Origin: Isoetes taiwanensis
Lineage: Eukaryota; Streptophyta; Lycopodiopsida; Isoetales; Isoetaceae
Reading direction: 5' to 3'
Length of the DNA: 64,000 nucleotides
NCBI GenBank assembly: GCA_021234155.1
Contig: JAJEKV010000062.1
Coordinates: 8,076,425-8,140,424, forward strand
The position numbers were made by a program, and so were the translations under genes. Below the pieces are notes generated by a model, which saw only the letters and a list, made by a program, of their open reading frames with translations, made no database searches and was not told the origin of the DNA. Positions 4,053-45,240 of the stretch are shown here, one piece after another (position 1 is the stretch's first letter; each line of letters begins with the position of its first letter).

Positions 4053-4693
4053 TTTACAGAAGCAGACATTGGAAGTTTTACTTGAGCCTAGGAAACCACG
4101 AGCATAATAGCTCAGTCGTATAAAAAAGAAAGCAATCTTAACAACATGAGCGAGCTGAAATCTGCTTGGTGCTTTCGTCTGAATACAAGAGGAAAATTTA
4201 GTAATGGCTTGCCTGAATGATTAGAAGCTTGTCTTTAAAACTTGAGAATTTGTAACTTCTTAGAAAAGAACGGGCAAAAATATGGTGAAAACATTGATCG
4301 ATACCTTGCAAAATTGCTTATACCCTTAACTCCCAATGCAGAGTAAAGCTCTATTTGAAGTTGTCCACGGCAATATAGGCTTCTAGCCAGTGTAGGCTCA
4401 GTACGTGCGAGAAGTTTCGAGAATACGTTAGCCTCGCCATTGATTATAGGTGAAATCTAGGTAGAATATGAAGGCCACTACGTAAGGTGGGGACCTTCTT
4501 CCCTTTTTTTTTAACCCATGTGGTTACATCGTGTAGAAGAAGAGAGCATTTTCAAAGGAGACCAAAAGGAGCTTCTAAAATGGAACGAGTCTCGCTCAAG
4601 CATTTCGAAGAAATTACCTAAAGGAAAGTTGCCAGGCTAATAATAAGGGACCAAACATTAGTCTGATCGATCCTCCGTCCGCCATAGCCAGCC
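4053..4693. other. Upstream region of the first membrane-protein gene
   Basis: No gene or repeat is recognised. It should contain the promoter and 5' untranslated region of the gene starting at 4694, but I cannot point to a convincing TATA box. The retro-insertion ends about 640 bases upstream of the start codon. Confidence 0.4.
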
Positions 4694-5698
4694 ATGGACA
4701 AAGAAATCGAAGAAATGCAGTTTTTGGGGGTTTTCGGGTTGATAAAAGAAGCGCTGCATATGCTTGCCCGCCATGCCAAGCTTCTTTTTTCCATCACAAT
4801 TCTCCTTCTTTTCCCCTTGGTCTTGGTCGAGCTCTGCCATTCTTTTTTCACAAATCCGATCATTAACAGAATACTGGTCGATCAATTCCTTATCGGCGCA
4901 GAAGAAAGGGTCGGAGACGCCGTTGATGCTTCAAAAACACAGAAAGATCTCCGCCTGGAATGGATCAAACTCTTGGTATTTTTTTTAGGGTATCTTCTTT
5001 TCCTCCTTGCGTTTTCTTTGTTGTCTATTTCTGCCTTGGTGTATACTGTGGCGTCCATATATGTGGAAAAGGAGGTCGGATTCAAGAAGACCCTAAAAGC
5101 AATTCCTCGCATCTGGTGGCGCCTTTTGCTTACTCTGTTTTGGGGTTTCATCATAATCTTTGCCTTTAATTTTCTGCTGATCCTAGTTAGTGCAGTCTTC
5201 ATAAACCTGCTTGCTCTCATCAAAATTTCTCCTGCTGTTTCCATGGTTTTTTTTGTTCTGGTTTACTTTGGAATTCATATCTACTTGAGTTTGTGCTGGC
5301 ATCTTGCAAACGTGATCTCGGTTATGGAAGACAAGTATGGAATTGGTGCTCTTAGAAAGAGCCTGAACCTTGTCAGAGGCAGAGTTCTAGTTGGATATGC
5401 ACTCATTTTCATCTCCTTCATCTTCACAACAATAGTTGGTTCAGTTTTTAGAAGAAAGGTGCTGATTGGAGGCTCAGGCGTGGCTGCCAGGATTTGGTAT
5501 GGAATTCTGCTTGTCATTGCTCTTACTTTTGTCAATCTGGTGGCCATACTTGTGCAGACCCTGTTCTACTTCTCATGTAAGTCTTACCACCATGAAAGCA
5601 TAGACAAGCTAGCCCTTTCTGACCAGTTAGATGGCTACCTTGGAGAGTATATGCCCTTGAAGGACCCTTCTATTCCCATGGAAGACTTTGAGGCCTGA
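4694..5698 (+). CDS. Intronless polytopic membrane protein, plant-specific uncharacterised family
   Basis: A 334-residue protein from a single exon. It has about six hydrophobic segments (roughly residues 30-50, 92-122, 144-176, 181-205, 231-251, 268-292), so it is an integral membrane protein, probably of the endomembrane system. The N-terminus (MDKEIEEMQFLG), the central WHLANVISVMEDKYG block (202-216) followed by a basic KSL.L.RGR, and the C-terminal LFYFSCKSYHHE match my memory of a plant family often labelled 'polyadenylate-binding protein 1-B-binding protein' or 'transmembrane protein'. No enzymatic activity is known to me. The ATG at 4694 is the first in frame, and the N-terminus aligns with the downstream paralogue at 6692. 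The frame has no stops, indels or missing blocks. Likely functional. Confidence 0.9.
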   Translation: MDKEIEEMQFLGVFGLIKEALHMLARHAKLLFSITILLLFPLVLVELCHSFFTNPIINRILVDQFLIGAEERVGDAVDASKTQKDLRLEWIKLLVFFLGYLLFLLAFSLLSISALVYTVASIYVEKEVGFKKTLKAIPRIWWRLLLTLFWGFIIIFAFNFLLILVSAVFINLLALIKISPAVSMVFFVLVYFGIHIYLSLCWHLANVISVMEDKYGIGALRKSLNLVRGRVLVGYALIFISFIFTTIVGSVFRRKVLIGGSGVAARIWYGILLVIALTFVNLVAILVQTLFYFSCKSYHHESIDKLALSDQLDGYLGEYMPLKDPSIPMEDFEA

Positions 5699-5814: not shown

Positions 5815-6691
5815 TTTTCCTTGGTACATAAATGGAAATTGGCATGGAACTTTCTATCAAAATACATCTCCACATATTATGACCAAAGAGGGATAAAAGG
5901 AGGATAATTAGAGTCTAATTGCATAAGATTTATATAAGATGAAGGACTTCATAAAAGCATTTCCAAATGTTCTCCACCATTTTAAATTTTGTTCTCTCTT
6001 GCGTGTCCATGTGTTCACCCATTTGCATTAGTATCATACCTACTTGAAACAACTTTATGCTTTGCAACATTATAAGATCTACTTGTTATCAGGATGAAAC
6101 CATGAAGTAAGAATCTGCAAAACTCAACAAAACCGACACGAAACCAAACTTGTTTGTGCATGATGGTTGACAATGAGCATTATCTAATTTCGCTTCAAAA
6201 ATACCTGATTGGAGCTACTAATATAGTTTAAGCCATTACTCACAAACATGCTACAATGGTGACAAATTCAAGCCACACATAAACACATTCCCACTTTATA
6301 GTGTCTTGATAATATGTTCTTTGACCACATTCGCCTGTGGCGTCATGATGAATCTCTGCGAAAACGATAAGATAAGGTAGAAACTTTTAACTCCACGGAG
6401 GCCACCAAGGGTTACGGGATGGTAGAGAGCAAAGATAATAACATTTGGCACATTAATTTAAGCATTGTTTTCTTTCTTTTTTGTTCAAGTCTTAAGTCGA
6501 CAAGTAACAGTCGAGAAATTGCATAGAAAGTTTAACAAACCCCACATTGAAAATTTCCTTGTATAAGGTTGATTATTGTGCCCTACTAGACTTTCTAAGA
6601 AATGCCTTCGCATGACTAAATATCCCCTTCACATGACTAAATATCCACTTCATACCTCACGTCTCTCATCTTCAGAAACGCAGCCATAGCC
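5815..6691. other. Intergenic region between the tandem paralogues
   Basis: No gene seen. A short direct duplication of a CATGACTAAATATCC unit lies at about 6611-6646, some 45-80 bases upstream of the next start codon, in what should be its promoter or leader. Confidence 0.45.
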
Positions 6692-7648
6692 ATGGAGAAG
6701 GAGCATGCCATGCGTTCCTTGGGGTTTTTTGGTCTAATAAGAAAGGCTTTGGTCATGTTTGCATGCCATGCCAAGATTCTTGTCGCAATTGCGTTCACTT
6801 TCCTTCTTCCATCTATCTCATTGAATTTCTTCATCATTTCTTTTTTCATTGGGAAGATAATCACTGATGCAACAATGCTTGTCAAACAAAGCAACATAGA
6901 TGTTTATCTAGACATGGTTAATTTGGAGTGGACACTTGTGGGCTACCTTGCTTTGGCCACTATGTTTTCATTTATACCCACCGCTGCCCTCATTTACAGT
7001 GTGGCATGCATTTATGCTGAACAAAAGATCAAGTTCATGAAAATTGTACGAGCAGTACCTCAAATTTGGTGGCGCCTTGTGCTCACGTGGATATGGAGGT
7101 TGTTGATCCAAATCATCTTTGGGATTTTGTTAAGTATTTGCGCAGTTACGGCTTTCCTTTGGGCACTAGGATTAAGCCTTGTCACTGTCCGCATTACCAT
7201 AGTAGTTTTTTCTTCTCTTGCTTTCTTGGCCTTTACCTCGTATATTGATGTATGTTGGCACCTTGCAAACGTTATGATAGTTGTAGAAGACAAGTATGGA
7301 CTTGAAGCTCTTGAGAAAAGTGTCCTACTTGTGAAAGGCAAATTTGGAGTTGGATTTGCAATCCTTCTCCTCCACACATTCATTGCCATGTTGATTGTTC
7401 CCATATACTCTACCAAGATGTACAAACATGGGGTTGTAGAACTATGTTATGGTTTTATGCTCATCATTCTTCTCACCTTTGTCAAGCTTATGGGCATGTT
7501 ACTACATAGTTTGTTCTACTTCTCATGTAAGTCTTATCACCATGAAAACATTGACATATTACTTCTTTCTGATCAACTCAATGGCCAAGCCAGAGGATAC
7601 ATGTCTGTGAAGGATCTTTCTGAACCCACAAAATGTGATGAGGCCTAA
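6692..7648 (+). CDS. Tandem paralogue of the polytopic membrane protein
   Basis: A 318-residue single-exon protein, clearly homologous end to end with the 4694-5698 product. Shared blocks are the N-terminal LGFFGLI(R/K), the IWWRL.LT segment, CWHLANV at 188-194 followed by VEDKYG, the basic K-S-(X)n-VKGK motif and the C-terminal LFYFSCKSYHHE (274-285). It has about six membrane segments. It lacks about 16 residues in the first loop relative to its neighbour. The two genes are about 1 kb apart in the same orientation, so they arose by tandem duplication. The sequences have diverged substantially, so the duplication is not recent. Frame intact; probably functional. Role unknown. Confidence 0.88.
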   Translation: MEKEHAMRSLGFFGLIRKALVMFACHAKILVAIAFTFLLPSISLNFFIISFFIGKIITDATMLVKQSNIDVYLDMVNLEWTLVGYLALATMFSFIPTAALIYSVACIYAEQKIKFMKIVRAVPQIWWRLVLTWIWRLLIQIIFGILLSICAVTAFLWALGLSLVTVRITIVVFSSLAFLAFTSYIDVCWHLANVMIVVEDKYGLEALEKSVLLVKGKFGVGFAILLLHTFIAMLIVPIYSTKMYKHGVVELCYGFMLIILLTFVKLMGMLLHSLFYFSCKSYHHENIDILLLSDQLNGQARGYMSVKDLSEPTKCDEA

Positions 7649-8922: not shown

Positions 8923-10098
8923 ATAAAGAAGCTCGAATTATACTCATACAGTTTATTTGGCTTGCTTGATTAAGTGTATATATGTTGATCTTTGCTATTT
9001 GAAGAATAAGTAGATGCTTGAATCGCAAAGGATCTTTCATGCATCTCATTTTCATCACCACTCTTTATAATGCCCCCTTTCTTACCTTCGCTAATGGCAG
9101 CACGCTATGGAGCTTGGTATATCTGCCTCCTTGATGAGAACACCAGGATACATATGGAAGGGATGCGTCTAAAAATTTCTTCTAAATGGTACTCAACATG
9201 ACAATTATTGGACTTTGAAGTTTGTCCGGCATCATAGACTTCAATGGATCAGATTGTAAGCTGGCATTCAAATCAGAGGTTACTATAGCCAATGGATATT
9301 GTAACAGAATTAAAAATGCTGGCATTTCATGTGACAATTCAGTGGAATATGAACTTATTACAAGAAAACAAAGCAAGCTCTCAAGAATTATCAGCTGAGT
9401 TGCATAGAGCATCTTTGAAGACACCTAAATATTTCAATTTGGGTTAATTGCATCTTCAAAGCAGATAATTGTCCCTTCATTTCTATAAATATTTGTCACC
9501 ATTCATTTGCTTATTTTGTTAATATAAGGATGAGGAGAATTTGCATTTTATATTGGAATCCATTTCTTCCAAAGAGGGCACATGCGCTTGCATGGCATGG
9601 AATTATTGATAGGTTTCAGCACATTGCATACCTAACAAAGTTTAAATTGGAACACACTTATTTGCTCCAAATGCACTTTAGAAGGAATCTTTGAAAGATT
9701 CCCTAAGATTCCCTAAAAAAAAGTCCATTTTGAAGGTTTGTTCGTGACAAGTGTAATAATTTAGGTAATTTAGGTATTCTTTTTGAGGGGTTGATTGAAC
9801 ATAGCTTGTATGCAAAAATATTTAATAGCTTTTTTTAGCCCCCTAATTTGGAACAATAAATAGTTACTTAGATGAAAAGTAAAAAAATAGGCAATGAAAA
9901 AATAGCAAGGGTAGTAGAGTGATAAAGAAGTGTTGTATTCATATCTTGTGAAAATTTTACAAAATTATGAACAAAATTGTCAAAAACATAGCACATTTTG
10001 ACAAAGCCTCATCACTGGCACTTTGTCTTGTTTACATGTCTGTGTCATCGGACGAACTTACATTTTGCAGCAATATCAGGATGCATGTCATCCTCAAA
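8923..10098. other. No gene recognised
   Basis: AT-rich sequence with short open frames on both strands and no motif I can support. A tandem GATTCCCTAA duplication is visible near 9695-9715. Confidence 0.5.
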
Positions 10099-10400: not shown

Positions 10401-12846
10401 TCAAACTATAACTTCCAATCGAAAGCATTGATAGCACTTGTTCTCATCCACCAAAGACACTTTAATTGAGTGGGAATTCCATCCTCTTGTTACCTCCAAT
10501 ACTCTAGCTAGCCAGAATGGATTCCCAGTTTCATTATCATCAGCTGGGACAACAACAAGCATTCCTTTCTGAATCTCTGAGACAACTTGTTGTGCCGTCG
10601 CGTCTGGGGCCAATATACATGACTCATCATCTTCATCCGAGCTAGGCATTAGTCGTACATGTTCTTCTTGATTCTCAACTTGCATAGGCGTAGTTTGCCT
10701 AGATGGCCAGCTTGAATGCAACAGGTCTTCTACCTTGTGACAAAGCTTGTAGCATGTCACGTTGCTGAGAAAAAAACTGAGGCCACCATAAAGCATCTGC
10801 CTCCCCAAAGTGGTTAGAGCATGACTGAATACTTGTCTCAATATAATCCAATGATTTGTTTGAGTTAAATGCTCTTCCCTCCTTTTTACTCTTTGTGATT
10901 TCTTTCAAGCTCTTTAGAGGCATTTGCTCTGCAGAGAGCATAGAAGTAGTCTCGGGGATGGTGCGAATGAATTGAATACCAGATGTTGGCTGCCACTGCA
11001 AGGATGTGGCATATTTCTTTCCTTGTAAGATGGCCTTGCCATCTGCAAGTGAGAATTTGATCTGATGCTGAAATGTAATGTTTCTTAAGGGCTCAATTGC
11101 ACAGTGACCCAATTGATCTCTCCGAAAAATCCATTCCTTGAAATCGTAAGTTTCTTCCAATATCTCGCTTTCTGGTCGAGGATTGTAGGAATCTTGGATA
11201 ACCTCAATCATTGCTGGCAGGCTGAGAGCTTTTTTTCGAGCAAGACATTTAGAGAACCTACTAAACATCTGATCAATTTGATCGTGTGTATGACCAACAA
11301 GCAGGAAACCAATCTTCAGCTTCTTGAAGATTTGTTTCTCAACTAGCATGGCACAGTAAGCAAACAATGCCTGATTCTTATTCTCTCTTGTCGTGTTGTC
11401 TAGCTGAAGATATAGAACTGGTGGTATATGTTCCAGACTGGAAAGAATCTTATTCAATATTGTGATAGTGAGATTTGGATCAGCATGAATGTTTGGATAG
11501 TTCAAAAATGCCTTGCAAGAGAGTTTTCCATTAAAAAACATAGCACCAACGACATGCAGGTGTATGAAATCTTCTTTAGGAGCATCCTTAGGCACATTGA
11601 CAAAGTGTGGTAGGGTGGTCTTCTTCTGGTCCATTCCACCAATAACAACCGATATATAGTTGAGTGGTTGTTCTAGTGCCTTCTTCCTGTGTTTTGTCAA
11701 TTTTCTCCTTTCCAAAGATTGTTGCTCTCTGTGCTTGTTCAGTTTCTTTTTCAATGCATCTGAAATGAAAACATGTTTAGGAAAAAAAAACCTACCATTG
11801 AGTAGAACTAGGCAAGAGTACGTTGTGGAAGCTTACTTTTAGTGTGAAGTGTCCTTGCATTTTGTCTCTGAGCTTTTAATTTAGAGCATGTAGCACAAAC
11901 AGACATCCGGTGCTTTCTAGGAATAGACAATGGGAGAGCACAGTGAAGTAAGAGTAGCATACATGGCGTTCTCCAGCCTCAACACACAAATCCTTATAAT
12001 TATTGTAGACTTCATGTTTCGTGAAGTTGTCATTCAAGTGGTACATAGGGCTGTTAGGGAGTTTCTCGCAAGACTCCTTGAAGAAACCTTCCATCCAGGA
12101 AACACGTTAAAGGGCATGAATTCTGGATATACTTCCCAAATGGCAGTAGTCATTAATGCCAGGATTCTTGTCAAGCCTTTTCTTCAGGCGATGAAGTCGT
12201 CTGCTGCCTAAAGCATGAATCAATTTAAAGGCCGTTTGACAGACAGTGTGGCCACCAGCTGTGTAAGTAAACTTATCACCATAATCTGGCCGAATATTGA
12301 AGGCTAAGTAGCCCCTTTGGTCTAACAAAGTCATTGAACTGTAGTTGTCACGAATCAACCTTAATTCCTTTAGTCCAATCTTGAGCAAACAACATTGAAG
12401 ACAACAGTGCTTTGTATGTGTTGCCCTCAAGTGACCCTCGTCTATTAGTTTCTTTCTTCTTTGCGATGTACAAGCTTTCTTGTGTAAGTTTCGCTTGAGG
12501 TTTTCACTCGCATGAGCTTTGAATTCGAACATAGAGTCATGTGGCTTTGCTACATCATCATCTGAGAGATCAACATGAGGTGTTTGCATGGGAGCAACAG
12601 ATGGTGTACTAGTAGATGCTGTGAGGTTGGGTGTGGGCAGGTCTTGGAGGGAGTTAGTTTTCCTTTCTCTTGGAAAAAGTAGTCGAGGTTGATGATGTAG
12701 TTGAGCAGCTCCTGAAGTGTCATAGAACATAGGAGTTACATGGCGCTGACTGCTCCCACTTAGTGTAGTATCAGGTAGCGAGATGGATGGAGTTGGAGTG
12801 ATTTGCGCCCGGGAAACCGGGTCTTTTTGGACTATAGGAGACGACT
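10401..12846 (-). pseudogene. DUF7869-type transposase-like gene, broken by indels
   Basis: Read from about 12846 down to 10401. The first block (12846-12107) is Ser/Thr/Pro-rich, then has a Cys-rich THTKHCCLQCC segment and a VC.TAFK.IHALG..RLHRLKK segment. An in-frame TAA at 12107-12109 is followed, in the same frame, by VSWMEGFFKESCEKLP and HEVYNNYKDLC. A one-base shift near 11930 leads to a VCATCSKLK zinc-knuckle-like segment. A 77-base intron (11836-11760, GTAAGC...TTTCAG) joins in frame to the core: SVVIGGMDQKKT, LYLQLDN..RENKN, and VGHTHDQIDQMFSRF. These three blocks are the conserved acidic/histidine core of the DUF7869 family (RNase H-like fold inferred). Another shift near 10720 leads to a C-terminal part with FWLARVLEV. 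The architecture is complete but three lesions prevent translation. Family name from memory. Confidence 0.72.
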
Positions 12847-13170
12847 AAAATAAAATGAACTGGAGGAGGGAGTCCGAGTCGCCTCTCGCTTCGTGGAGGA
12901 ATCAATGGGTGGAGGAAAGTTGCGATGTTCTCGTGGGTCAGTGGGGAGTAAAATGCATTGGTGGGGGCAAACGACGCTTAGGAGCAAAGCGATGGTGGAG
13001 TAAACCGAATGGTGGTGGAAGCCGACGGCACAAACGCCGGCCGGGCTTTGAATGTCGAGTCGGTTTTGTGGCTACTATCCGGGGACATTGGACAAGGTGT
13101 GAAAAGCATTGGAGGAAGGAGCCTCATGAAAGACGGGCGGCGCTTCTGAAGCTTCTCTTTTTCCAGCCAT
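12847..13170 (-). other. Possible first exon region of the DUF7869-like gene
   Basis: On the minus strand an ATG at 13170-13168 opens a Ser/Pro/Ala-rich frame (MAGKREASEAPPVFHEAPSS) that soon meets two stops. A TTTATTTTAG acceptor-like site lies just before the open block starting at 12846. The segment is distinctly GC-richer than its surroundings. A first exon plus an intron boundary is plausible; the exact structure is not resolved. The plus-strand frame over the same bases is Arg/Trp-rich and not protein-like. Confidence 0.3.
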
Positions 13171-13190: not shown

Positions 13191-13270
13191 ACGATAAATT
13201 TATACGACTATACGTATGTAAGAGATAGTGAACGGTATAAATTTATACAGAGACGGTATAAATTTATACG
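13191..13270. repeat. Three proximal copies of the 16-bp palindrome
   Basis: Copies of the GGTATAAATTTATACC-type palindrome lie at about 13193-13206 (shortened), 13234-13249 and 13255-13270, the last two 21 bases apart. They sit 20-100 bases upstream of the candidate start of the minus-strand DUF7869-like gene, that is, in its promoter or leader. Confidence 0.75.
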
Positions 13271-13544
13271 AAAACTTCAGATTTCCGTATAGGAAACGTT
13301 ATGGAAAACTGCTATACTAAGAACATACAAAGAGGTATACTTAAGACCAAAGAATGGCTAGTCTATTTCCTATATACGCTTGTTGATTCAAGGCGCCAAG
13401 GCGCCTTTATATATATGCCCAATTTGCTCCTCCCGACAATTATAAGCAATTCCATACGGTCATGGCCACGTAAGTCTCTAACCCGTACCATTTTAGTTCT
13501 GCATCTCTTTTAATCTTTTTACTTTTCTTCTATTTTGGGTCTAT

Positions 13545-13960
13545 GGTATAAATTTATACTGAGGCTGAGATCCCTCGTTATAAATTTATCCCATTGCAGA
13601 ACTCTCTCGGTATAAATTTATACCGCGAGTTCTGCAACGGTATAAATTTATACCTCTCGTGTTCCCTCAGTATAAATTTATACCGCTAGAACTTAGCAAA
13701 GATAAATTTATACCGAGAGACCACAGATGGTATAAATTTATATCGCTAGAAACTTTCGCAGTATAAATTTATACCGAGAGAGTTCTCGCAATGGTATAAA
13801 TTTATATCGAGGAAACGAAGCGTATAAATTTATACCGTTTGAACCTTTGCCGGGATAACTTTAATCCGCTCGTGTTCTTTCAGTATAAATTTATACCGCT
13901 GTATACTCACTCGGTATAAATTTATACCGAGAGACCACCTCCTCGGTATAAATTTATACC
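13545..13960. repeat. Palindrome array 1: 14 units, 28-33-bp period
   Basis: Fourteen copies of a 16-bp perfect or near-perfect palindrome (consensus GGTATAAATTTATACC) start at 13545, 13577, 13609, 13639, 13669, 13699, 13729, 13760, 13793, 13821, 13852, 13882, 13913 and 13945. Five successive starts (13609 to 13729) are spaced exactly 30 bases apart, and the rest 28-33. The 12-17-base spacers vary, but some recur: CTCGTGTTC(C/T)(C/T)TC twice, GAGAGACCAC twice, GCTAGAA twice. In several units the symmetry extends outwards as CTCGG...CCGAG. The 13852 unit is the most degenerate. There is no coding potential. Confidence 0.92.
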
Positions 13961-14198
13961 GAGGATGTGAGGTCTAAAGAAAGGTTTGGAATCATGTTTT
14001 TTAAATAATAGTGGTGTGTTTTAGAGTCTAAATACACCGAAAAAAGGGTACAATAGCCCCAAATTGAGGTTCTTTAAGGCACCATTTTTAGAACTAAAGT
14101 AGTTAAAAATTTGTTAAAAAAACAGTTTTCGTGAAGTAAAACGGGTCTTTTTACACCTTTTCAGCCCCAAGATTGTCATTAAAGGCAAAGGCTAGCAG
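13961..14198. other. Unassigned sequence after array 1
   Basis: AT-rich, no gene or repeat recognised. It ends in a GGCTAGCAG acceptor-like site before the exon-like frame at 14199. Confidence 0.4.
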
Positions 14199-14417
14199 TC
14201 ATCTTCGAAGACACAATCCTATGAACTGAAGGATGTGACATGGTACGTGCACAGGGGAGCGCGAGAACGCTACCCCACTGATGCGTACCTGTACTTGTGC
14301 AGTAAGACAGGAAGGGGGAAGTTTAGGCCTGAGGACTACTACCCCGCTGGTGAAATGACAAGTTTAACGTCCACAGAAAACGAAGACAAACTTCCTGATG
14401 AACTGTGTGAACGATGA
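14199..14417 (+). other. Exon-like open frame, unrecognised protein
   Basis: After an acceptor-like CTAGCAG a 72-codon frame runs to TGA at 14415-14417. It reads SSSKTQSYELKDVTWYVHRG, followed by a segment with YPTDAYLYLC, GRGKFRPEDYY and a polar tail ending DELCER. The composition is protein-like (balanced, Tyr/Asp-rich) rather than random. I do not recognise the family. It could be the last exon of a gene that includes neighbouring pieces, for example an upstream part of the ParB-like locus. Confidence 0.35.
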
Positions 14418-14508
14418 AGGGGATGTAGAGTAAATTCTGAACAGCAGAATGTTTCGTATCAGCATGTGCAAGCCTAAAGATAAGATGTCCACGAATACAT
14501 CTCAGAGA

Positions 14509-14626
14509 ATAACAAGCTTGGTTATGTAAGTATGCGCATCTCCCTTTTTCCTTCGTGGCTTCTCCGTATAACAAGCTTGGTTATGTAAGTATGCGCGTCT
14601 CCCTTTTTTCTTCGTGGCTTCTCCGT
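14509..14626. repeat. 59-bp tandem duplication
   Basis: Two adjacent copies (14509-14567 and 14568-14626) start ATAACAAGCTTGGTTATG and differ at a few bases. The second copy runs directly into a single palindrome copy at 14624-14639. Confidence 0.8.
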
Positions 14627-14639
14627 ATAAATTTATACC
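14624..14639. repeat. Isolated copy of the 16-bp palindrome
   Basis: CGTATAAATTTATACC, one mismatch from the array consensus, stands alone about 660 bases after array 1 and abuts the 59-bp tandem duplication. Confidence 0.75.
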
Positions 14640-14717
14640 GACAGCGGACTAATTTAACCTACACTACCGGACTTAGTGGACATCTTATCTTCAGTGACTC
14701 TCTGTGAAGAGAGAGTT

Positions 14718-15119
14718 ATGGTCAAAGGTTTGTGGTACCCACGTGCTAGGGATGATGTGGAGAAAGAAAGCAAACCGGAAGAGGAAGAGGAGGAAGAGGT
14801 GGTGATGAAAGGAAAGGGCAAGAGGCAAGCCCTGGTTGTAAAAACATAGGCCACAGAAATATCTAGAACCACAAAGGCCTTGACAATCGAGGAATCAGCA
14901 GAAGCGCTTCAAAAGGCTCCTAGGGCAGATGTTGTTTTGAAGCCCTCAGACAGATCAGGTGCTATACTAAAAAGGGTTAAAACCATCATTCATTTACTTT
15001 CGGTTTATGTCAGGAAATTGGGCATTTTAGAGAGCATCCCTTTTACCCGTGTGGCTTTTCCCGTCCGTGAAAATGGCTCCCGCTTAAAAACAATTCAAAA
15101 TTTTTTCCCTCTCTCCTGA
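14718..15119 (+). other. Acidic/basic open frame with one internal stop
   Basis: An ATG at 14718 opens a 43-codon frame (MVKGLWYPRARDDVEKE, then an acidic run of seven Glu and a basic GKGKR patch). After a TAG at 14847 the same frame stays open to 15119 (TIEESAEALQKAPRADVVLK). The strongly charged, non-repetitive composition suggests remains of an exon. I cannot name it, and no splice signals settle its ends. Confidence 0.3.
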
Positions 15120-15244
15120 ATCTCTCCCGAAGACGTTTTTTTTTCCCATTTTCTTCTTCGGCGCCGTTTTTTTTTCGCTTCATCTTCCCTTCTTCCCCGT
15201 TTTCACTCCACCGCCTCTTCTCTTCTCCTTCCTTTCTTCCGGTG

Positions 15245-15852
15245 ATGACAACGGCGCCTCCAACTCTTCTTCCGGCCATTGCTTCTGCCCCCGGCTATGA
15301 CGGCATTGCTTCCATGACGGCATCGCATAGGGAAGAAGCTTTTTTTGAAACACGAACGCTTGGAGCGCCATCGAGCAGTAGCGGTTTTGTAAATCTGATG
15401 CGCAGGGTTATTTAGAATCCAGAGGGCTCCTTCAAATCCCGACCTGTGAGTTTTGGCTCAGCCCAGATGACCTAGGTTGTTTGTTTCTGTTAGGCCTAAG
15501 AAGCTGCGCCTAAGAAGCTAGGCATACTGTAAATGTTTCGAAGGAAACATGCATATGTAGACAGAACTGCAAGAAAGAGGTACGAAATTCATTTGATTTT
15601 TGTTTGTATTGATACTTGTGAAATTTCAAGCTTTGCAATGAATGCTCTTTTTGTTGGATTTCTGGCATCAAATTCTGTAGTTTTGTTATTCATTTTTTTC
15701 TGATTTTTGCATAAAAGTCGTTAACATCTTCAGCATCTAACGTGCTTTGTTGAAGGTGGTTGCAGGTGCTAGATGATGCTCAATCACAGCTTAAAGGCGA
15801 TTAGAATCACGTCATATCCATATACGATACAACACTGCGAGACGGTGCCCAG
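15245..15852 (+). pseudogene. 5' fragment of a citramalate/isopropylmalate-synthase-type gene
   Basis: An exon at 15766-15852 encodes HVISIYDTTLRDGAQ. TTLRDG(A/E)Q is the metal- and substrate-binding signature at the start of the HMGL-like TIM barrel in isopropylmalate, homocitrate and citramalate synthases; the A form suggests the citramalate type. The exon is preceded by TTGCAG and followed by GCAAGC, a GC-AG type donor. One codon of this exon is TAG (15802-15804), so it is broken. Upstream, a pyrimidine-rich leader precedes an ATG at 15245 opening an Ala/Ser/Thr-rich 56-codon frame (MTTAPPTLLPAIASAPGYDG) that would suit a plastid transit peptide. No later exons are visible downstream. It is therefore a truncated gene copy or captured fragment. 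Confidence 0.55.
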
Positions 15853-16630
15853 GCAAGCAATCATCCAACTGTTCTGATCCAGTTGATCCAATTGTTCTGT
15901 ATAACTTGAAACGTAGTTTATGAAGTTGTTATTCCCCTTTGGCAGCATCAATTTCATTGCACAGATACTAGTATTAAAGCATTGGACAATAATAAAAAGC
16001 CCATAGTTCTGAAAGAATCCTTGAGCTTCACATGCAAATGCTACTCTGTAGTTGAATCAAAGCCCCTTAGTCTGATTTTTCTATATCACAAGAATAAAAG
16101 CTTCAGAATCCCAAATCAGTATTTTCAGTTAAGTGGGCATCATATTTTGAGCAGCTTTTGGAATTGATTGATTGTTGGCCTAATTTTGTGAGTTTATCTG
16201 GTTTGGAAAGAGCAGCTCAAAGATCATGAAGGCAGGCTAAATCACGCTTGGCATGATAATGTGCTACAACCTTTGTTGAATGGTCCTTCCCAAATCACGC
16301 TTGGCGTGTATTGCTGCTCCATACCTGCTTCATAACTGCAAAATCATGTGCTTAGTATAGAGAAAAAGCACTGCTATATTTCTCTTCAATGGAATATATG
16401 TTGATAAATCTGGTCAAGCATGTTTGATGCTTTAAGGAAAAAAGACTAATATAGTATATTTTATCTGAGAAGCAAATGTCTCAATGTATTATTGGGCTTT
16501 AATTTTCTAGTTTTTCTATAATAATTTCAATTTGACACAGCTCACAAGGGTTTTAAGTGAGATTTTTTTTAAAGTAATGACAATGTATTTTAATATCAAA
16601 GCAATAATAATTGCCAATAATAATAAAAAA
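15853..16630. other. No gene recognised
   Basis: AT-rich sequence after the synthase-like exon. I looked for the next exon of that gene and saw none. Short open frames here lack motifs. Confidence 0.45.
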
Positions 16631-16633
16631 AGA

Positions 16634-16787
16634 CTGGTTGGTCTAGTGGTAAGGGTGGGGGGTTTGGGGGGCAATGTCCAGGGTTCAAGTCCATGGTAAA
16701 CCAAAAAAAAAAAATTCATGTGCTCCATGGCCCCGCGAGGCCCAAGTGAGCATTAGACAAAAATTAAATTAAATTAAATTAAATATT
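16634..16787 (+). mobile_element. tRNA-derived SINE
   Basis: It starts with a tRNA-like head: box A TGGTCTAGTGG at 16639-16649 and box B GGTTCAAGTCC at 16682-16692, spaced as in an RNA polymerase III internal promoter. A run of A follows, then a body of about 50 bases (CATGTGCTCCATGGCCCCG...), and a repetitive (AAATT)n tail to 16787. The head cannot fold as a normal tRNA (a G-rich run replaces the anticodon region), which argues for a SINE. A flanking target duplication is not clear. Confidence 0.65.
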
Positions 16788-17726
16788 GTGTGTATGAATG
16801 TGCTAATGTCTGTAAATGCTGATCAAACATCAATTTCTTCCTCGTATTTTAAATAATAATTAAAACACCTATTAATTATGACTCAAACATTGTACTTTTG
16901 CATAACAACATGTCAAGCACCACATCATTATATTGAGTAAGGGGTTTGCAAAAGTGGCGTGCTTTTGGGACAGACATAATCCCAATTTAAATGAATGATG
17001 GTTTTAATGAGACGAAGATGTTGAAGCAAACTATTTTATTGACAATGAGCACGATCAAGAGGCCACCAAAAAATGAAGATGGGGTCAGAGTGTTTCAGGT
17101 GAGGAAGTTATACGTGGCACATGTGGCTATCCGAAAGCGGAGAATGCGAAGGAATCCACATGCACATGTGTCGCCACTTGTTGTCATGGTCGATAGAACC
17201 CAGGTCCAGGAGCTGAGGCATTATAGGAAGGCTGACTTCGAGGACTACGCTTATTATGTTCTTGGTGGCACACACAGTTATAAGGCAAGGAAAGAACTAT
17301 CTAAAGAAGAAAGCCAAAACGAGGTCTGGAAGAGCATGGAAGCCCACATATATGTGAGTCTAACAGACGAAGAAGCGAAAGTCATTGTCGTGAGCCACAA
17401 CCTCGACAATGACTTTAGGTTAAAGATAAGCCTTATAGATAAAATCCGCTTCATGCACAGAGAGTATGTCGAGTTCAAACAACTGCATGGAGAGGACTTC
17501 AAGAAGCAGAAGAACAAGCTCCAAGAACTTCGCGAGGCCTGACTGGATGCTGCCTAAGTTACGATTCTGATAAGAAGCCCATCATGGCTGTGAAGCAGTA
17601 CGATAACTACTTCCAACTTGCTTTCAGAGATGGCCAAGTAAGTGCAACCTTTGTATTATCCTTTCAATTCTATGTTTAGCGTGGTCTAGAAGGTGTAGAA
17701 CGGAAGGGAATAATGAAGACGAGAGC

Positions 17727-17966
17727 TGTATAAGTTCGTACCCTGGCGTGGAGCGGTATAAACTTATACCGCGCACCGGAACGGTATAAATTTATACCGC
17801 ACTCCGGAATGGTATAAATTTATACCGGTCCGGACCACAGTATAAAATTATACAGCAGCCTTCCACGGTATAAACTTATACCACAGCCTGGCACGGTATA
17901 AATTTATACCGAGGCCTGGCCCGGTTTAAATTTATACCATGGCATGGACTGGTATAAGAAAGAATT
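17727..17966. repeat. Palindrome array 2: nine units, exact 28-bp period, inside an intron
   Basis: Copies of the same 16-bp palindrome begin at 17727, 17755, 17783, 17811, 17839, 17867, 17895, 17923 and 17951, every one exactly 28 bases from the last. The outer two are degenerate. The 12-base spacers are GC-rich and vary (GCGCACCGGAAC, GCACTCCGGAAT, ACAGCCTGGCAC, GAGGCCTGGCCC and others). The array lies wholly within the intron 17638-18084 of the ParB-like gene. The same intron holds a run of about 26 A near 18009-18033. Confidence 0.93.
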
Positions 17967-18921
17967 TTCTCAAGATGTTCGAGGATGGTGAACTTATGAG
18001 AAAAAACTGCAAAAAAAAAAAAAAAAAAAAAAATAGTGAGACAAGAAAAAAAATATGAGCATTGTACATTGGACGCAAGTACAGGGGCTAAAGAGCAAAT
18101 AAATTTTTGTGCATCACTTAGAGAAAGTTGTGGCCAAAGAATTCACTCTCGATGAAATGGCAAAGGAAGCTAAGACGAAGTCGCCTTTTACTATGTTGTG
18201 TTCTTTTTTTCCTCATTTTGTCTTACAATCTCTTTCTTTTGGTCGGGAAAAGGACATTGTCACCTGCCAATCCAAGTTAATGAAGCAACTAAACCTAGAA
18301 GACTGGGAAGAGTGCAATCTTCTTTATCCAACTTGTACGACAGACATCATAATTAGAGAACACGCAGTGAACTTCAGTGGCTGGGTGAGTTTTGTAGAAA
18401 ACATGTTTTGTCTTCGTGTCTTTGTCTCATAGTTCTCTTTACGTAACAAGAAGAAAGTACGCCGCCAGAAAAGTTCAACCTGGGTTTGTAGGGCCAAAGA
18501 GGAAAGGCAAAGAATGAAGGCCATCGAACAGGGAAAGCAAGTCGCACCAAGCAGTTTTGACAATGGCTATCGAAGATTTACTACGCTTGGTTTCTCAGGA
18601 TCGCTTGGCCAAGGTTGTACAAGGTGATTGCACTAGGTTGGGACCGTGGATGGACAAGCAAAACTTGACAGCCGTGCATAGCCGACATTCCATAACGGAT
18701 TCAAGATTAAAGACCAGCGCTTCATGATGAGGCTTTCACACATGTGCAAGTACGTTTTTTGGATGGCCTCAAGGAAGTCACCCATCAAATTGGCAGTTAT
18801 CATTTTTTCACCCCACCGCACCATGTCGCTCAAACCAATAGGAGCGGCCTCGCAACGCCGGCCAAGATCGCATTTGGTAAGCTTTACATTTGTTCACGCT
18901 GCTTTTCACTAGGAATCCTAC

Positions 18922-18937
18922 GGTATGAATTTATACA
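18922..18937. repeat. Single degenerate palindrome in a second intron
   Basis: GGTATGAATTTATACA differs from the array consensus at two positions. It lies in the candidate intron 18877-19040 of the ParB-like gene, so two introns of this gene carry the motif. Confidence 0.6.
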
Positions 18938-19213
18938 TCGCTGGTGCCTTGCGGTCCATGGGGCGTAAGATCCTAGGCGTATCTATATTTATATATTTTT
19001 CTTATTGCTTCTAGTTTACAATTGCTTTATCTTCTACCAGTCAAGACTAACGCCAAAGGACATGGTAGGGGTCCGCTGATAGTCACCGCCGGGCATTCCC
19101 ATATAGGTTATTACAAAATAAGCAAACACCAAAACCATGGTGCATTTCAATACATAGATCGAGAAGTCGCCAGCCATGCAATGCATTCCACCTTCTTGCC
19201 TTGCAAAAGTTGA

Positions 19214-20849
19214 GAGACCCACGCAGACAAGGCGCTGTGGTGCCCGGACTTGGTTCGACGCCGAACAGCACCACAACATTTGCTCTTAAGAAGGGGCGAA
19301 TGTTGTTTCGCTTGGATATAGATCCAGATAAAATTAGTTTCATCGGGGACTAGAATAAGCTTCTATGAATCCTTTCCATGAAAATGAGGAATTGGGAGCA
19401 AAGAATGGTGCCGGGGATGTTAAAGGCACTTACCCGAAATCCGACCTCCACCACGGTGAAGAAAAGATGAGGAGGTGGAGTTCGTGGATCCGAGCCGAGC
19501 TAGAGCCCGCCAAACCGCTTTGCCAATAGGGATTAGAATCGTAAGGTGTGTCTCTCGGGCTTTGTGGCCTCTCAAGAGACAGATCCAAAGGGAGACGAGA
19601 GTCTTGCATTTTATGCTAGATATTAGCATGGCTTCATCTTCTCTTTTATTCATCCTTGCTCAACCAAAGATTAGTGTCAGCCTCTATCAAACCACTCCCA
19701 AAAACTCTCTGCCTTCCGGTCCCTAGAACTTGAACAATTAGTCACTTCCCATGGTCAAAGCCGACAATTAAAACATTTGCTTTCATCTTAGGGCAAATTT
19801 TGAATTTTTAGATGTCCACTAGTAATGGGTGCTCGGCATTGCCGTGCATAAGGAGGGGCATATCTTTGTATAGGATTTGTCTATAGGAATTTATTAGTTA
19901 AGTTGCTACCTTTACAATTTATAGTTAAATGCAATAAACTATGGCACACATTTTTTCCTAGACACAACAAATTAGCGATTCATCATGATAAATATCACAA
20001 AGAATGGTTTGCCGCAAAACGTATATTTATATAGTCATGTCACTATGGTTTTTCTATGATTATGTTGATGTTTATAGAGGCGTGCTTTAGATTTTGAGTT
20101 GCTAAAAGTAATTTAGTTCTATGATTGGGGCATTTATGTATGTGTTGGTGGACTTTCTTGGGCATGGTATATGGAGAGATCGAGCCCTTCCATTTTAGGG
20201 CTTGTTGATAGTAGTTTTGTTATTTAAAATGCCTTGTAAAGGTCTTACTTTCATGTCACTATTATCCCTACTTTTATGCAAGTAAAAAAGATCCGCCTAA
20301 AGTTGTCGCATGTACTGTGAGTACCGCTGTATGTAAGGAGTGTCAATTAGTTTATGAAGTTAATGCAAAACAAATAATTTGTTGTATTTGCATTGATTTA
20401 TGTTGGTTTATGATGTAAAATTGTTAATTGCCTTTTCATTGAGAAGGTAATATGCTAATCAAAAAGCCTTATATGGAATGTTCATCCGTTATGACTTTGG
20501 GAACTAATGGACAACTTAGATGCTAACAAATGTGATATTACATTGTTTGTTTTGATAATATTTGGGAACCAACTATGATACCATTGCACTTACAAAAGTG
20601 CTAAACTGAGCCTCTTAATCTTTCCATATTAAAGCTGAATCTCTTAATCTTTCCATATTTGCTATTAAATGTGTGCTGGACATAACTTATACCACTCAAA
20701 ACTATTAATACTCTTATAACCTTTAAGGTTTCACGTCAGCTCAAGATAAAATTGAATTAATGTCTTGGTGAATAAAATTATTTTACAGCTTTGAACCATC
20801 TTTGGAGACACCAATACATATGCAGTAAATGTTTAAAATGAAACGCGAC
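19214..20849. other. Gene-free stretch containing copy 2 of the dispersed repeat
   Basis: No gene is recognised. The segment at about 19940-20220 is the uninterrupted copy of the dispersed repeat described at 7715-8420. The rest is AT-rich, with a tandem duplication of a CTCTTAATCTTTCCATATT unit near 20611-20660. Confidence 0.5.
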
Positions 20850-22311
20850 TTATTTGTGTTTGAAAGATTCCTTCAAAAATTTGAAAAATTGCAAAAATGT
20901 ATAAAATAGGGAGCAAGATAGATTGTTGAGCACATTCTTAAGGTTAAAGAAGCCGCAAGATGGTGGAGAATAGGTAGTCGGATTTTTCTTTTTGACATCG
21001 TCCCCATCTACACTCATTATATAACCTTTGACCACACACCTTATATGCCCTATTATCACCGACATATACTTGATGTTCAGATGTAGATGCCCTCAAATGT
21101 TTCAAATATTTCTCTCACTGTGAGTCATGTGCATTGATGCCCGAGTCCAACCATATATCCCCTCGACTGATTCATTCCTGCGATGAACTTACCATGAATA
21201 ATTTATCACCATCTTTATTGTCTCCCTTTTCAAAGTTTCTTGATGGAAATCGTTTATCCACCGATGACGACATTAACTGTTCTGCAATCCTTCTCGCCAT
21301 ATGACCAGCCTTGCTACACAATCGAAAAGCAAGAGGATTTTTCTCGTCTTATTCCGCATGCTTGCTTCCCCTCTAAATCTGCCAAACGGAGTTGGGCTTC
21401 TATTCCCATCTGATGGAACATCCCTTGTCTGCATTGGTTTCTTTCCAAACCATCTCTTCTTGTCTTTGATCATAAAAGCTGTATTCTTCGCATTTCCTTC
21501 TAATTTCGCTTTTTTCCTCTTCTATTAACGCTTACAACCAAGCCGGCCCATTGACCGGTTTGGGATGTTTGTTAATGTTGTAACAACCGATCTGAAATCC
21601 GGAGGCCAATCCCTTCAATAGCACCGCCATTTGATCTTCTCGGCCGAGACCTTTTACATTCACTCTTGCTAATTGTATGACAAGAGCACGAACCCACTCA
21701 AAAATTTCTGAATAGATTCCCCTCGAGGTCATGTGGAAATCAAAAATTGCTAAGCTCAAAGACACCACATGTCTTTCCAAATTCCTCCAAATGTCTTCCC
21801 ATTGTTTCCCGCCTCTTGGCACTCTTCTTCAAGTCTACAAGGTGAATATATACTCTTCCCCAAGAGCTAATCCTATTGTGGGTGATCGCTCTTCCCCTCC
21901 TATCATTCATTCCGTGCTTTGTCGCTGGCCGGCCCTGGACCTCTCTGCAGGCCATCTACAAATCAGTCTGTGTTGCTTCTCTCTCATCATGATTAATTGA
22001 AGTTTTAGGGACCGATATGATAATTGTTTCAAAGAATTTCTCAGAAAACATCTCAAAGAATTTATCTATTCCCCGAAGTTGATCCCGCCATGCTTTAAAC
22101 TCAAATTGCGGTATGAAATTGCACCTCAATAGGTCACCGATAAATTTTTTGTGGAACTGAGCGTCTCAATACGCCCTCCTTTGTCAGAGGGCTTAATTCG
22201 ACCGTTTTCAAATTTTCTCGGCCGGGGTTCCTTTGATTTACCCCGTAGAACCCTTTGAATCCTTTCTTTTCTAAACTATGGCAACGCAATACCGTTTATG
22301 CCCATAGCAAA
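20850..22311 (-). pseudogene. Ty1/copia element remnant: gag and protease, minus strand
   Basis: Reading down from the primer-binding site at 22312-22323. The gag region (about 21980-21300) contains YSEIFEWVRALVIQLARVNV and EDQMAVLLKGL, as in the UBN2-type copia gag. A decayed zinc knuckle follows (CSKAGHMARRIAEQ, with the first and last cysteines lost). The protease motif WLDSG lies at about 21139-21150, followed by VYVGDNRAYKV. The remaining frame to 20850 has NLKNVLNNLS in the place of the copia 'KNVLYVPNLS' segment. Several frameshifts are present. Integrase, reverse transcriptase and both LTRs are absent. Confidence 0.7.
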
Positions 22312-34680: not shown

Positions 34681-38640
<3,960 letters not shown>

Positions 38641-43723: not shown

Positions 43724-45240
43724 GTACACATACTAAGATGCTCAAGCTGATTCTGTCATTTGTATGAAAGTAATACGCTTGCATACCAGACCATTCATTC
43801 AAAATTTCAAAACTATAAGGCCCGCAGACCAGACCATTCAGGAATTTACAAAACACTAGACACTCTTTACATTGTTTTAATTAGATCTGTGTGTTATTCC
43901 TCTGTGTGTTATTCCTCAGTAGTATCAAATGCTGGCACAGTAGTCTCAAATGTTGGCACAGGTTGTAGAAACAGAAGCTGGCACACAAGAATCTGGCAAA
44001 TTAGATGGTGCAGCTATTGATATATTACCCAAAATGGCTTTGAGTCCTACAACTCTCGTTCTCAGCTGAGCATTCTCCATTTCAAGCCTCTTCGAGCTTG
44101 TAGCCATTCCCGACTACATCTCACCAAGAACGGTCATATTAATATGGCAGTAAATATCAAGACCTTCACGAAACTATAAGATTGGCATAGGCCCTGGCAA
44201 GAAATGTCCTTCTGGCACAGAAGGAACTTCAGTTGAAGACGCGCCAGGCGTGTGTTCAAACTGCTCAACCGCAGCGTCATTTGAGTTAAAGCTAGGCGTG
44301 GGAGGTGGGGGCACTAGGCGTAGTAACTATACGTTAGCGAATTCGCGCCAGGTGCGAATTCCATTCATTTATAATTTAAATGCACTTTAGTGATTTCGGG
44401 CCACGCGCGAATCCATTCATTTATAATTTAAATGCACTTTATGCCCATTGTTAATTCGTGATTAGTATTAAGAGGACTTGCCATTGTACCCAACTACTTT
44501 GAAGTTTAAACTCATTGGATGCATTAATATAATTAGCAAAGGATCTTTTTTGTAAGTTAATACTAAGATAAGCAAGCTAGTTACTGTATGCAATTCACGC
44601 CAGGCGTGTATTGGACTACTGTACAATTTAAACATTTTGCACAGAAACTTAAATCGCGCCTGGCATGATTTCAAAACTAAGGTTATCAAAATTACAGGAA
44701 GAATTCAAAACAAATTACAGAATTCGAAAACAAATTGCAGGAAGTAAGTCTTTGTATTATCAGAAAAATATTTTACATAAGGAGGGCCTTTTATTAGCGT
44801 TGCCTAGTTCTTTGATCCAAAATAACAAAAGTTCAAGGCAGTTTAAGGAGATGCCTAGCTCCATTCAAAATCATCAGTTGAGGCCTTTTTTGGAGATGCC
44901 CAGCTTGCTTTCCTGCACAAAAAACTAAATAACAAACAAAAAAAAGATTTTAGGGCTCATCCTCCTCGTCCTCCTCTTCTTCCTCTGAGCTTTCTTCTGC
45001 CATCTCTTCAAGGATAAAGCCAGCTTTATCTTCATCATCGGAGGAGGAGAGGGCATCCATGATAATCTCTTCTTCTCTTCCTCCAATTATTCATGCCACT
45101 CCTCATCCACTTCCTCCATTTCTTCTGCTATTTCTACCTCCTTCACAAAGCCATATGTGCTTTTTGATCATGGTTATCAAATAGTAATTCTATTTCTTTG
45201 TGCTCCATCTAAATAGAGTGCATAATAAAAACATTAGAAA
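43650..45240 (+). repeat. Segmental duplication, copy A
   Basis: From the last part of the DUF8039-like exon (AATGTGAGTTTTATTTTT) to about 45240 the sequence parallels 49470-51075. Matching blocks include CATTCATTCAAAATTTCAAA, GGTCATATTAATAT, GTGATTAGTATTAAGAGGAC, TTAGCGTTGCCTAG, and a closing block around AAATAGAGTGCATAATAAAA. It also contains a CTC/TCC-rich tract at 44950-45170 (Glu-rich on the minus strand). No gene of its own is recognised. Confidence 0.75.

Follow-up and report, generated by a model that had tools for sequence, protein, structure and literature searches.

A multicopy DNA transposon of roughly 8.8 kb was identified in Isoetes taiwanensis, starting from a decayed copy in a 64,000-bp stretch of contig JAJEKV010000062.1 (hereafter the window, meaning the whole stretch analysed). 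The transposon carries two divergent genes: gene 1, which encodes a DUF7869 protein, and gene 2, a putative fusion of a ParB-like domain and a beta-class DNA methyltransferase (PF01555) in which motif IV comes before motif I. Arrays of a 16-bp palindrome, GGTATAAATTTATACC, lie between the genes and within gene 2, and related families of the transposon carry other palindromes. The transposon and its termini, target duplications and gene content, the placement of the arrays and their recurrence among copies, and the difference between families were established by computation, within one genome and three families. The putative ParB-methyltransferase probably recognises the palindromes of its own family and in this way regulates or marks the element.

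The preliminary description of this DNA reported nine copies of the palindrome at a fixed 28-bp step in an intron of a ParB-like gene. A site scan of the window and Tandem Repeats Finder (TRF) showed that a 28-bp-step array of GGTATAAATTTATACC is real and lies at 17727–17958, beside the ParB-like exon. The step was thus confirmed, and the count was corrected to eight full-length sites, two of them weak, and a half site that closes the array at 17951 and was recognised by eye. The eight sites, in 28-bp register, began at 17727, 17755, 17783, 17811, 17839, 17867, 17895, and 17923 and had 4, 1, 0, 0, 3, 1, 0, and 1 mismatches to GGTATAAATTTATACC, respectively. TRF independently reported 17754–17957 with a period of 28, and a second array at 13608–13962 with a period of about 30–31, where palindrome sites start at 13545. 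There were 22 sites with up to two mismatches in the 64-kb window, all within 13234–18937, and five simulated Markov-1 windows together contained none at this threshold. Single sites at 13234, 13255, 14624, and 18922 had one, one, one, and two mismatches, and a weak one at 13191 had four. Five clusters (P1, P2, I1, I2, and I3) were distinguished, of which P2 (13545–13960), between the divergent DUF7869 and ParB genes, was the largest by unit number. The 28-bp-step array, I2, is one of five clusters, and it is probably intronic because other copies have an open ParB exon before the array and an open exon after it. A 59-bp tandem duplication at 14509–14630, within gene 2, ends at the single palindrome at 14624.

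The genome searched comprised 1,658,258,908 bases in 1110 contigs. The ParB open reading frame (ORF) gave 150 scored matches among 2897 first-look candidates, with identities of 75–100%. The sample of the window's own family, family A, consisted of 16 copies, ten fetched with 19 kb each and six diverged ones (75–78%) with 5 kb each. Homologues without an array and palindromes scattered apart from ParB-like loci, which the preliminary description named as refuting observations, were not encountered among the family-A copies fetched and in the flanks of the four complete ones: GGTATAAATTTATACC-type palindromes occurred in all 16 fetched copies, in five clusters, and 75 palindromes (up to one mismatch) lay inside four complete copies (41.8 kb) with none in 34,182 flanking bases. 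The commonest steps were 21 or 42 bp in P1, 30–32 bp in P2, 28 bp in I2, and 29 bp in I3. The size of I2 ranged from one site in copies c1039 and d1078 to thirteen in d1007 (up to two mismatches). In c907 (+3074 and +3114) and c1105 (+2798), extra sites lay some 0.5 kb short of the right end. In an analysis of 331 units, the 16-mer of the four arrays held 1.58–1.75 bits per base compared with 0.21–0.37 in the flanks; the units had been selected for agreement at nine or more of ten core bases, and three outer positions per side were left free. The I1 site held 1.80 bits compared with 0.94 in its flanks.

Loci found through PF01555 revealed two further families, B and C, and the order of gene 2 was alike where its pieces were seen. 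ParB identity to the window was 60% for family C and 48–50% for family B, and a divergent DUF7869 neighbour was listed for some B loci, e.g., L036 and L045. Allowing one mismatch, family B carried TGTATTCCGGAATACA in 11 of 12 loci, the miss being L036. At the same threshold, every one of the 16 A copies had A sites and none had a B site, and the 12 B loci had neither A nor C sites. Family C, represented by one locus, L044, had GGTATGAATTCATACC-type sites, among which A-like ones occurred in its upstream region. GTAT...ATAC is common to the A, B, and C palindromes, and a single symmetric pair of changes separates A from C. In loci under 6 kb, shuffled palindromes of matched composition averaged 0 to 0.15 occurrences per locus.

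The layout of gene 2 was pieced together from open frames in c907 and c1105, no copy being shown intact throughout. It comprised an unassigned N-terminal part, the ParB-like domain, a linker with KEFTLDEMAKEAKT, and the DNA methyltransferase. The preliminary description treated 16991–19213 as one gene, and this start could not be kept, as it falls within the terminus of a nested insertion of 2 kb; gene 2 continues on both sides. The ParB-like ORF itself was present as described, and weak but repeated signals suggested that its domain is ParB-like. PHROG ParB families matched with a best E-value of 0.005 (phrog_723 in four of nine relatives and phrog_6392 in three), and NCBIfam TIGR03764 matched at 1.6e-4 in two of the nine. 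Alignment to a phage ParB-like protein with hhalign gave a probability of 78 (P 1.9e-5), and the adjacent gene, used as negative control, gave 0.1. The canonical cytidine triphosphate (CTP) clamp motif of ParB is of the GERRxRA type; it was absent from the nine aligned rows, and all nine had GG[TN]HS[YF]KAR. The ParB exon appeared to be under purifying selection, with a median uncorrected ratio of nonsynonymous to synonymous differences per site (pN/pS) of 0.06 (0.04–0.38) in 55 pairs of 11 copies, namely the ten 19-kb copies and the window, the six 5-kb copies being left out.

The methyltransferase piece of c907 matched PF01555 with an E-value of 8.3e-12, and the second half in the window was called from homology to c1068 and partly to c907. 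Motif IV reads CIADIPYGFK in the open frames of c907 and c1105, and motif I reads PGDWVLDAFSGSGTT. Motif IV is canonically DPPY; here it was DIPY or DLPY in six of seven aligned rows and DIPH in one. By profile comparison of the motif-I half, the nearest solved structures were MboIIA (5.7e-12), RsrI (3.7e-10), and CcrM (7.6e-10), whose names or known activities are those of N6-adenine enzymes, and N4-cytosine enzymes were weaker (about 9e-4). The order of ParB, motif IV, and motif I agreed with that in an alignment built from phage sequences (three ParB-methylase genes and two ParB proteins), with hhalign probabilities of 58, 21, and 40, which are moderate scores with no control of their own. 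The PF01555 search of the genome gave 150 scored matches among 1442 first-look candidates, and matches were also found in 11 of 14 control genomes. At least 150 scored pieces of bacterial-type N6-adenine or N4-cytosine methyltransferases are unusual for a plant-sized genome. One PF01555 match, L037 (G000:C1034:14627601), had neither the family motifs nor palindromes in the fetched stretch; it may be another methyltransferase source or a chance frame and does not enter the family counts.

Homology between the copies ended at sharp boundaries. Four of the ten copies fetched at 19 kb had both ends, and in all four both termini began with AACAA[A/G/T]GTTTAA and were flanked by 4-bp target duplications (TATT in c907, CTTC in c1068, AATA in c1105, and TAAG in c1066). 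The two shortest complete copies were 8.84 and 8.87 kb. The left ends of c907, c1068, and c1066 aligned to the window from exactly base 9634, and the window copy extends from there to about 19606, its right end lying in inverted orientation at 20828–20933. The window copy is degenerate, having an in-frame stop at 14847 and a frameshift near 17539. A search for terminal repeats within the window alone gave only a weak lead, and the genome copies were needed to define the ends. Target duplications of 4 bp are a trait of the Sola1 superfamily; those found here have the Sola1 length, which other superfamilies (Ginger1) share. Academ was set aside as superfamily, the published AcademH duplications being given as 9–10 bp. 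Rfam had no match in the window at gathering thresholds. Viral contigs were not matched by DUF7869, the palindrome pair, or the ParB alignment, and two distant loci were matched by the methyltransferase alignment.

The product of gene 1 matched Pfam PF25273 (DUF7869) with an E-value of 9.5e-53. It looked transposase-like by eye, and acidic residues bearing on a possible DDE-type core were likewise noted by eye only. A PDB search with the DUF7869 protein found no relative (best E-value 2), and a literature search turned up no paper on DUF7869. The DUF7869 search of the genome gave 150 scored matches among 9902 candidates, and none in 14 control genomes. All four complete copies held homologues of both genes. 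When the 150 listed places each for DUF7869, ParB, and PF01555 were compared, at least 21 of the 150 family-A ParB places lay no more than 15 kb from a listed DUF7869 place (all 21 divergent, with 16 pairs at 3.68–4.01 kb), as did at least 24 of the 150 PF01555 places (22 divergent). These fractions are lower bounds because each list holds 150 places. Shifted controls gave 0, 0, and 0 pairs for ParB and 0, 0, and 2 for PF01555. Only one of the 150 listed ParB places had a listed PF01555 partner, because the PF01555 list was mostly filled by another family.

Table 1. Features of the transposon copy in the window (positions are those of the window).
Feature	Position	Strand	Remarks
Left terminal inverted repeat, AACAAAGTTTAAATTGGAACACACTTATTT	9634–9663	+	From alignment with c907, c1068, and c1066
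Gene 1, DUF7869 protein	10401–13170	-	Domain at about 11005–11583; first ATG at about 13170; frames partly broken
Cluster P1	13191–13270		Sites 13234 and 13255 (1 mismatch each) and weak 13191 (4); directly upstream of gene 1; units in 12/16 copies
Cluster P2	13545–13960		Main array between the divergent genes; commonest steps 30–32 bp; units in 14/16 copies
Gene 2, N-terminal exon remnant, SYELKDVTWYVHRGARERYPTDAYLYL...	14196–14414	+	No Pfam family match
Cluster I1	14624–14639		Single palindrome, probably intronic; 14/16 copies
Gene 2, ParB exon, first part	14670–14977	+	In-frame stop at 14847
Nested insertion, about 2 kb, termini AACCATCATTCATTTA	14978–17007		Splits the ParB exon; does not belong to the system
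Gene 2, ParB-like domain, YYVLGGTHSYKAR...LTDEEAKVIVVSHN	17006–17539	+	Followed by a frameshift; exon to about 17640
Cluster I2	17727–17958		28-bp-step array, probably intronic; 15/16 copies
Gene 2, exon remnants, VHHLEKVVAKEFTLDEMAKEAKT; DIVTCQSKLMKQLNLEDWEECN...SGW	18103–18387	+	Equivalent open frames in family A and B loci
Gene 2, putative methyltransferase, first half (motif IV)	18433–18909	+	Frames broken; open in copies: CIADIPYGFKIKDS
Cluster I3	18922–18937		Palindrome with 2 mismatches, probably intronic; units in 12/16 copies
Gene 2, putative methyltransferase, second half (motif I)	19043–19606	+	Frames broken; open in copies: PGDWVLDAFSGSGTT
Right terminal segment	20828–20933	-	Inverted orientation in the window copy; from comparison with genome copies

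The arms of the nested insertion, at 14977–15011 and 16973–17007, matched at 31 of 35 positions, with TTAA on both sides, and its target duplication is TTAA (or TA). When the insertion was removed, the flanks joined to SGAILKRVNETKMLKQ, and the uninterrupted copy c907 reads SSAILKRVNETKLLKQ there. The ORF start at 16991 is foreign to gene 2 because it lies inside the end of the insertion. The listed genome matches to this ORF never began before query residue 3, and mostly began at residue 5, except for the window and its twin. This twin, L003 (G000:C1070:8175464-8176012), is a second interrupted ParB ORF whose protein is 100% identical over 183 residues; it is located on the same contig as the window copy, 82 kb away, as a segmental or assembly duplication. 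The inverted repeat at 14977/16973 was considered as the ends of the main element and rejected, as it bounds the nested insertion.

The preliminary description offered a self-recognising system as one possibility, and this is the best reading of the arrays because they were present in 16 of 16 family-A copies and had another sequence in another family. Recognition by the element's own protein is suggested because the sites are symmetric, family-specific, and far more alike than their spacers, and because the element encodes a ParB-like methyltransferase. We propose that the ParB-methyltransferase, as a two-fold symmetric dimer, would bind the palindromes of its own family through its ParB part. 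Binding could regulate its own promoter region, lead to methylation of the element DNA (probably at N6-adenine), or do both, and the element might as a result escape or tune host silencing, or time its transposition. Candidate effects of the methylation would be protection from silencing, promoter activation, and transposition timing, though the choice of modified base and the benefit to the element are speculative. A more ambitious version, which we put forward tentatively and regard as possible rather than likely, is a self-identification code: the ParB-methyltransferase would load at family-specific parS-like arrays, possibly spread along the element, and place N6-methyladenine only on the introns and promoter region of elements of its own family; each of the related families in one genome would then be addressed separately, through its own palindromes.

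Binding by another protein was also considered. The DUF7869 transposase-like protein, or the N-terminal domain, might bind the palindromes like internal or subterminal repeats, for synapsis or transposase autoregulation, and the ParB-methyltransferase would then have another job. P1 and P2 lie directly upstream of the DUF7869 gene, both genes are represented in all four complete copies, and the extra sites of c907 and c1105 near the right end would suit such a role. However, three of the five clusters (I1, I2, and I3) are inside the ParB-methyltransferase gene, some 1.5–4 kb away from the right end of c907, and the left 3.5 kb of c907 contained no sites, unlike subterminal repeats at both ends, and we consider this explanation unlikely. 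ParB proteins load on palindromes; because of this, and because three of five clusters are in its own gene, we infer that the binder is the ParB-methyltransferase and not a host factor or the DUF7869 protein. It is less likely still that no protein recognises the arrays and that they are plain tandem repeats, or TATA-like repeats of promoter and introns, which differ between families only by descent and are kept by unequal exchange. The wide variation in copy number, as seen in I2, agrees with this, as does the presence of TATAAA on both strands of the sequence. Yet the spacers were much less alike than the 16-mer, even at the outer positions that the selection left free, the commonest spacings differed by cluster, the same 16-mer recurred in five separate places, and the change from A to C preserved the two-fold symmetry.

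Sites for a host factor, or a handle by which the host detects and silences the element, appear very improbable: the element would be expected to lose such sites, whereas they were kept in diverged copies, and the palindromes differed between families of one genome. The preliminary description also mentioned partition or replication, and a ParABS-like centromere would indeed combine 16-bp palindromes with a ParB-like domain. Nothing else pointed to such a role, though no search aimed at ParA was made. The element is a chromosomal, two-gene DNA transposon with target duplications, and one gene encodes both its ParB-like part and a methyltransferase; this reading was set aside once the termini and target duplications were found, and it is now hardly credible.

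Several observations weigh against recognition of the palindromes by the ParB-methyltransferase, or against the results on which it is based. A ParB profile built from nine relatives found no ParB in the PDB and instead gave DHFR-TS (0.008) and p300 (0.035). Pfam's ParB family did not match the domain, unrelated Pfam families matched at 0.004–0.02 (e.g., IgA0_D2 at 0.004 and CAC1F_C at 0.006), and an unnamed PHROG family matched at 0.001. A single-sequence AlphaFold model of the window ORF, made with no alignment, had a predicted local distance difference test (pLDDT) score of 38, too low for use in judging a ParB/sulfiredoxin fold. The median pS of 0.63 is near saturation, and the contrast in bits is partly built in because units were selected by their core match. 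Three families underlie the comparison between families, C with a single locus; that locus had four C-like and four A-like sites, and two of the 16 A copies, c1109 and c907, each held one C-like site. The binder could instead be the DUF7869 protein, which the element also encodes, and 105 of the 150 listed DUF7869 places had no listed ParB or PF01555 partner.

Genes of this kind in algal transposons have already been published. Sola1-1_Ec32 of Ectocarpus and similar algal transposons carry an accessory gene with a ParB-like domain and an N4-cytosine/N6-adenine methyltransferase (PMC12477816, citing Iyer 2011 and Petroll 2025), and the authors suggested, as an untested guess, that the accessory protein binds and modifies its own element. 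Sola1-1_Ec32 is likewise a DNA transposon in which the accessory gene is opposite to the transposase strand and both domains are in one protein. The Isoetes element differs in its plant host, its size (about 8.8 kb vs. 21.5 kb), its DUF7869 transposase-like gene, and its family-specific palindrome arrays, which the passages of PMC12477816 on these elements do not mention. In the literature search, which covered mostly titles and the openings of abstracts, neither palindrome arrays with ParB-methyltransferase genes nor a land-plant host was found.

A second parallel is VANDAL and its VANC factor in Arabidopsis, where a factor encoded by the element has a short target motif that is repeated in tandem in the element's non-coding DNA (PMC5735166). 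As here, the repeated motif is in non-coding DNA, and motif and factor vary by family. VANC differs in that it causes loss of DNA methylation, has a 9-base motif rather than a 16-bp palindrome, and belongs with other genes and another transposase class. The Pfam scan of the gene pieces contained no MuDR-type family (DUF7869 and PF01555 only), and VANC was not compared directly. DIRS elements with Dam-like enzymes and the DNMT elements of Symbiodinium and charophytes are methyltransferase-carrying retrotransposons (PMC5890265). They share with the Isoetes element a DNA methyltransferase encoded by a mobile element; unlike it, they are retrotransposons, and the relevant passages of PMC5890265 describe neither a ParB domain nor a palindromic target array.

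Among phages, gene 207 of Stormageddon and gene 81 of KimmyK (both Gordonia phages) and gene 50 of prophage prophiT46-2 have a ParB-like part followed by methyltransferase motifs, in the same order as gene 2. These actinophage genes are annotated as DNA methylases, encode about 400–445 amino acids, and are only remotely similar; no transposase partner was found in the short stretches fetched. Bacterial ParB-parS also joins a ParB-like domain to 16-bp palindromes, but the present system differs in that no partition context was noticed, in its GG(T/N)HS(Y/F)KAR motif, and in the dense arrays that it carries in introns and between genes.

The likely binding sites are thus visible in one plant genome in three sequence versions in three families, and the published guess of self-binding becomes directly testable. 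If the proposal is true, a self-marking system derived from bacteria or phages would operate in plant chromatin. It would resemble VANC anti-silencing while using different components, and it would be a natural source of factors recognising 16-bp sites in eukaryotic DNA.

Other features of the window were noted outside the transposon copy. A 52-bp tandem repeat at 44334–44441, with GCGAATTCGCG-like inverted pieces, bears palindromes and is far from the transposon. Two neighbouring, similar-looking ORFs of about 335 amino acids (4688–5698 and 6641–7648) were membrane-protein-like by eye, and the Pfam scan of the ORF at 4688–5698 gave nothing above the cut-off. A perfect (CT)55 run was present at 35200–35309.

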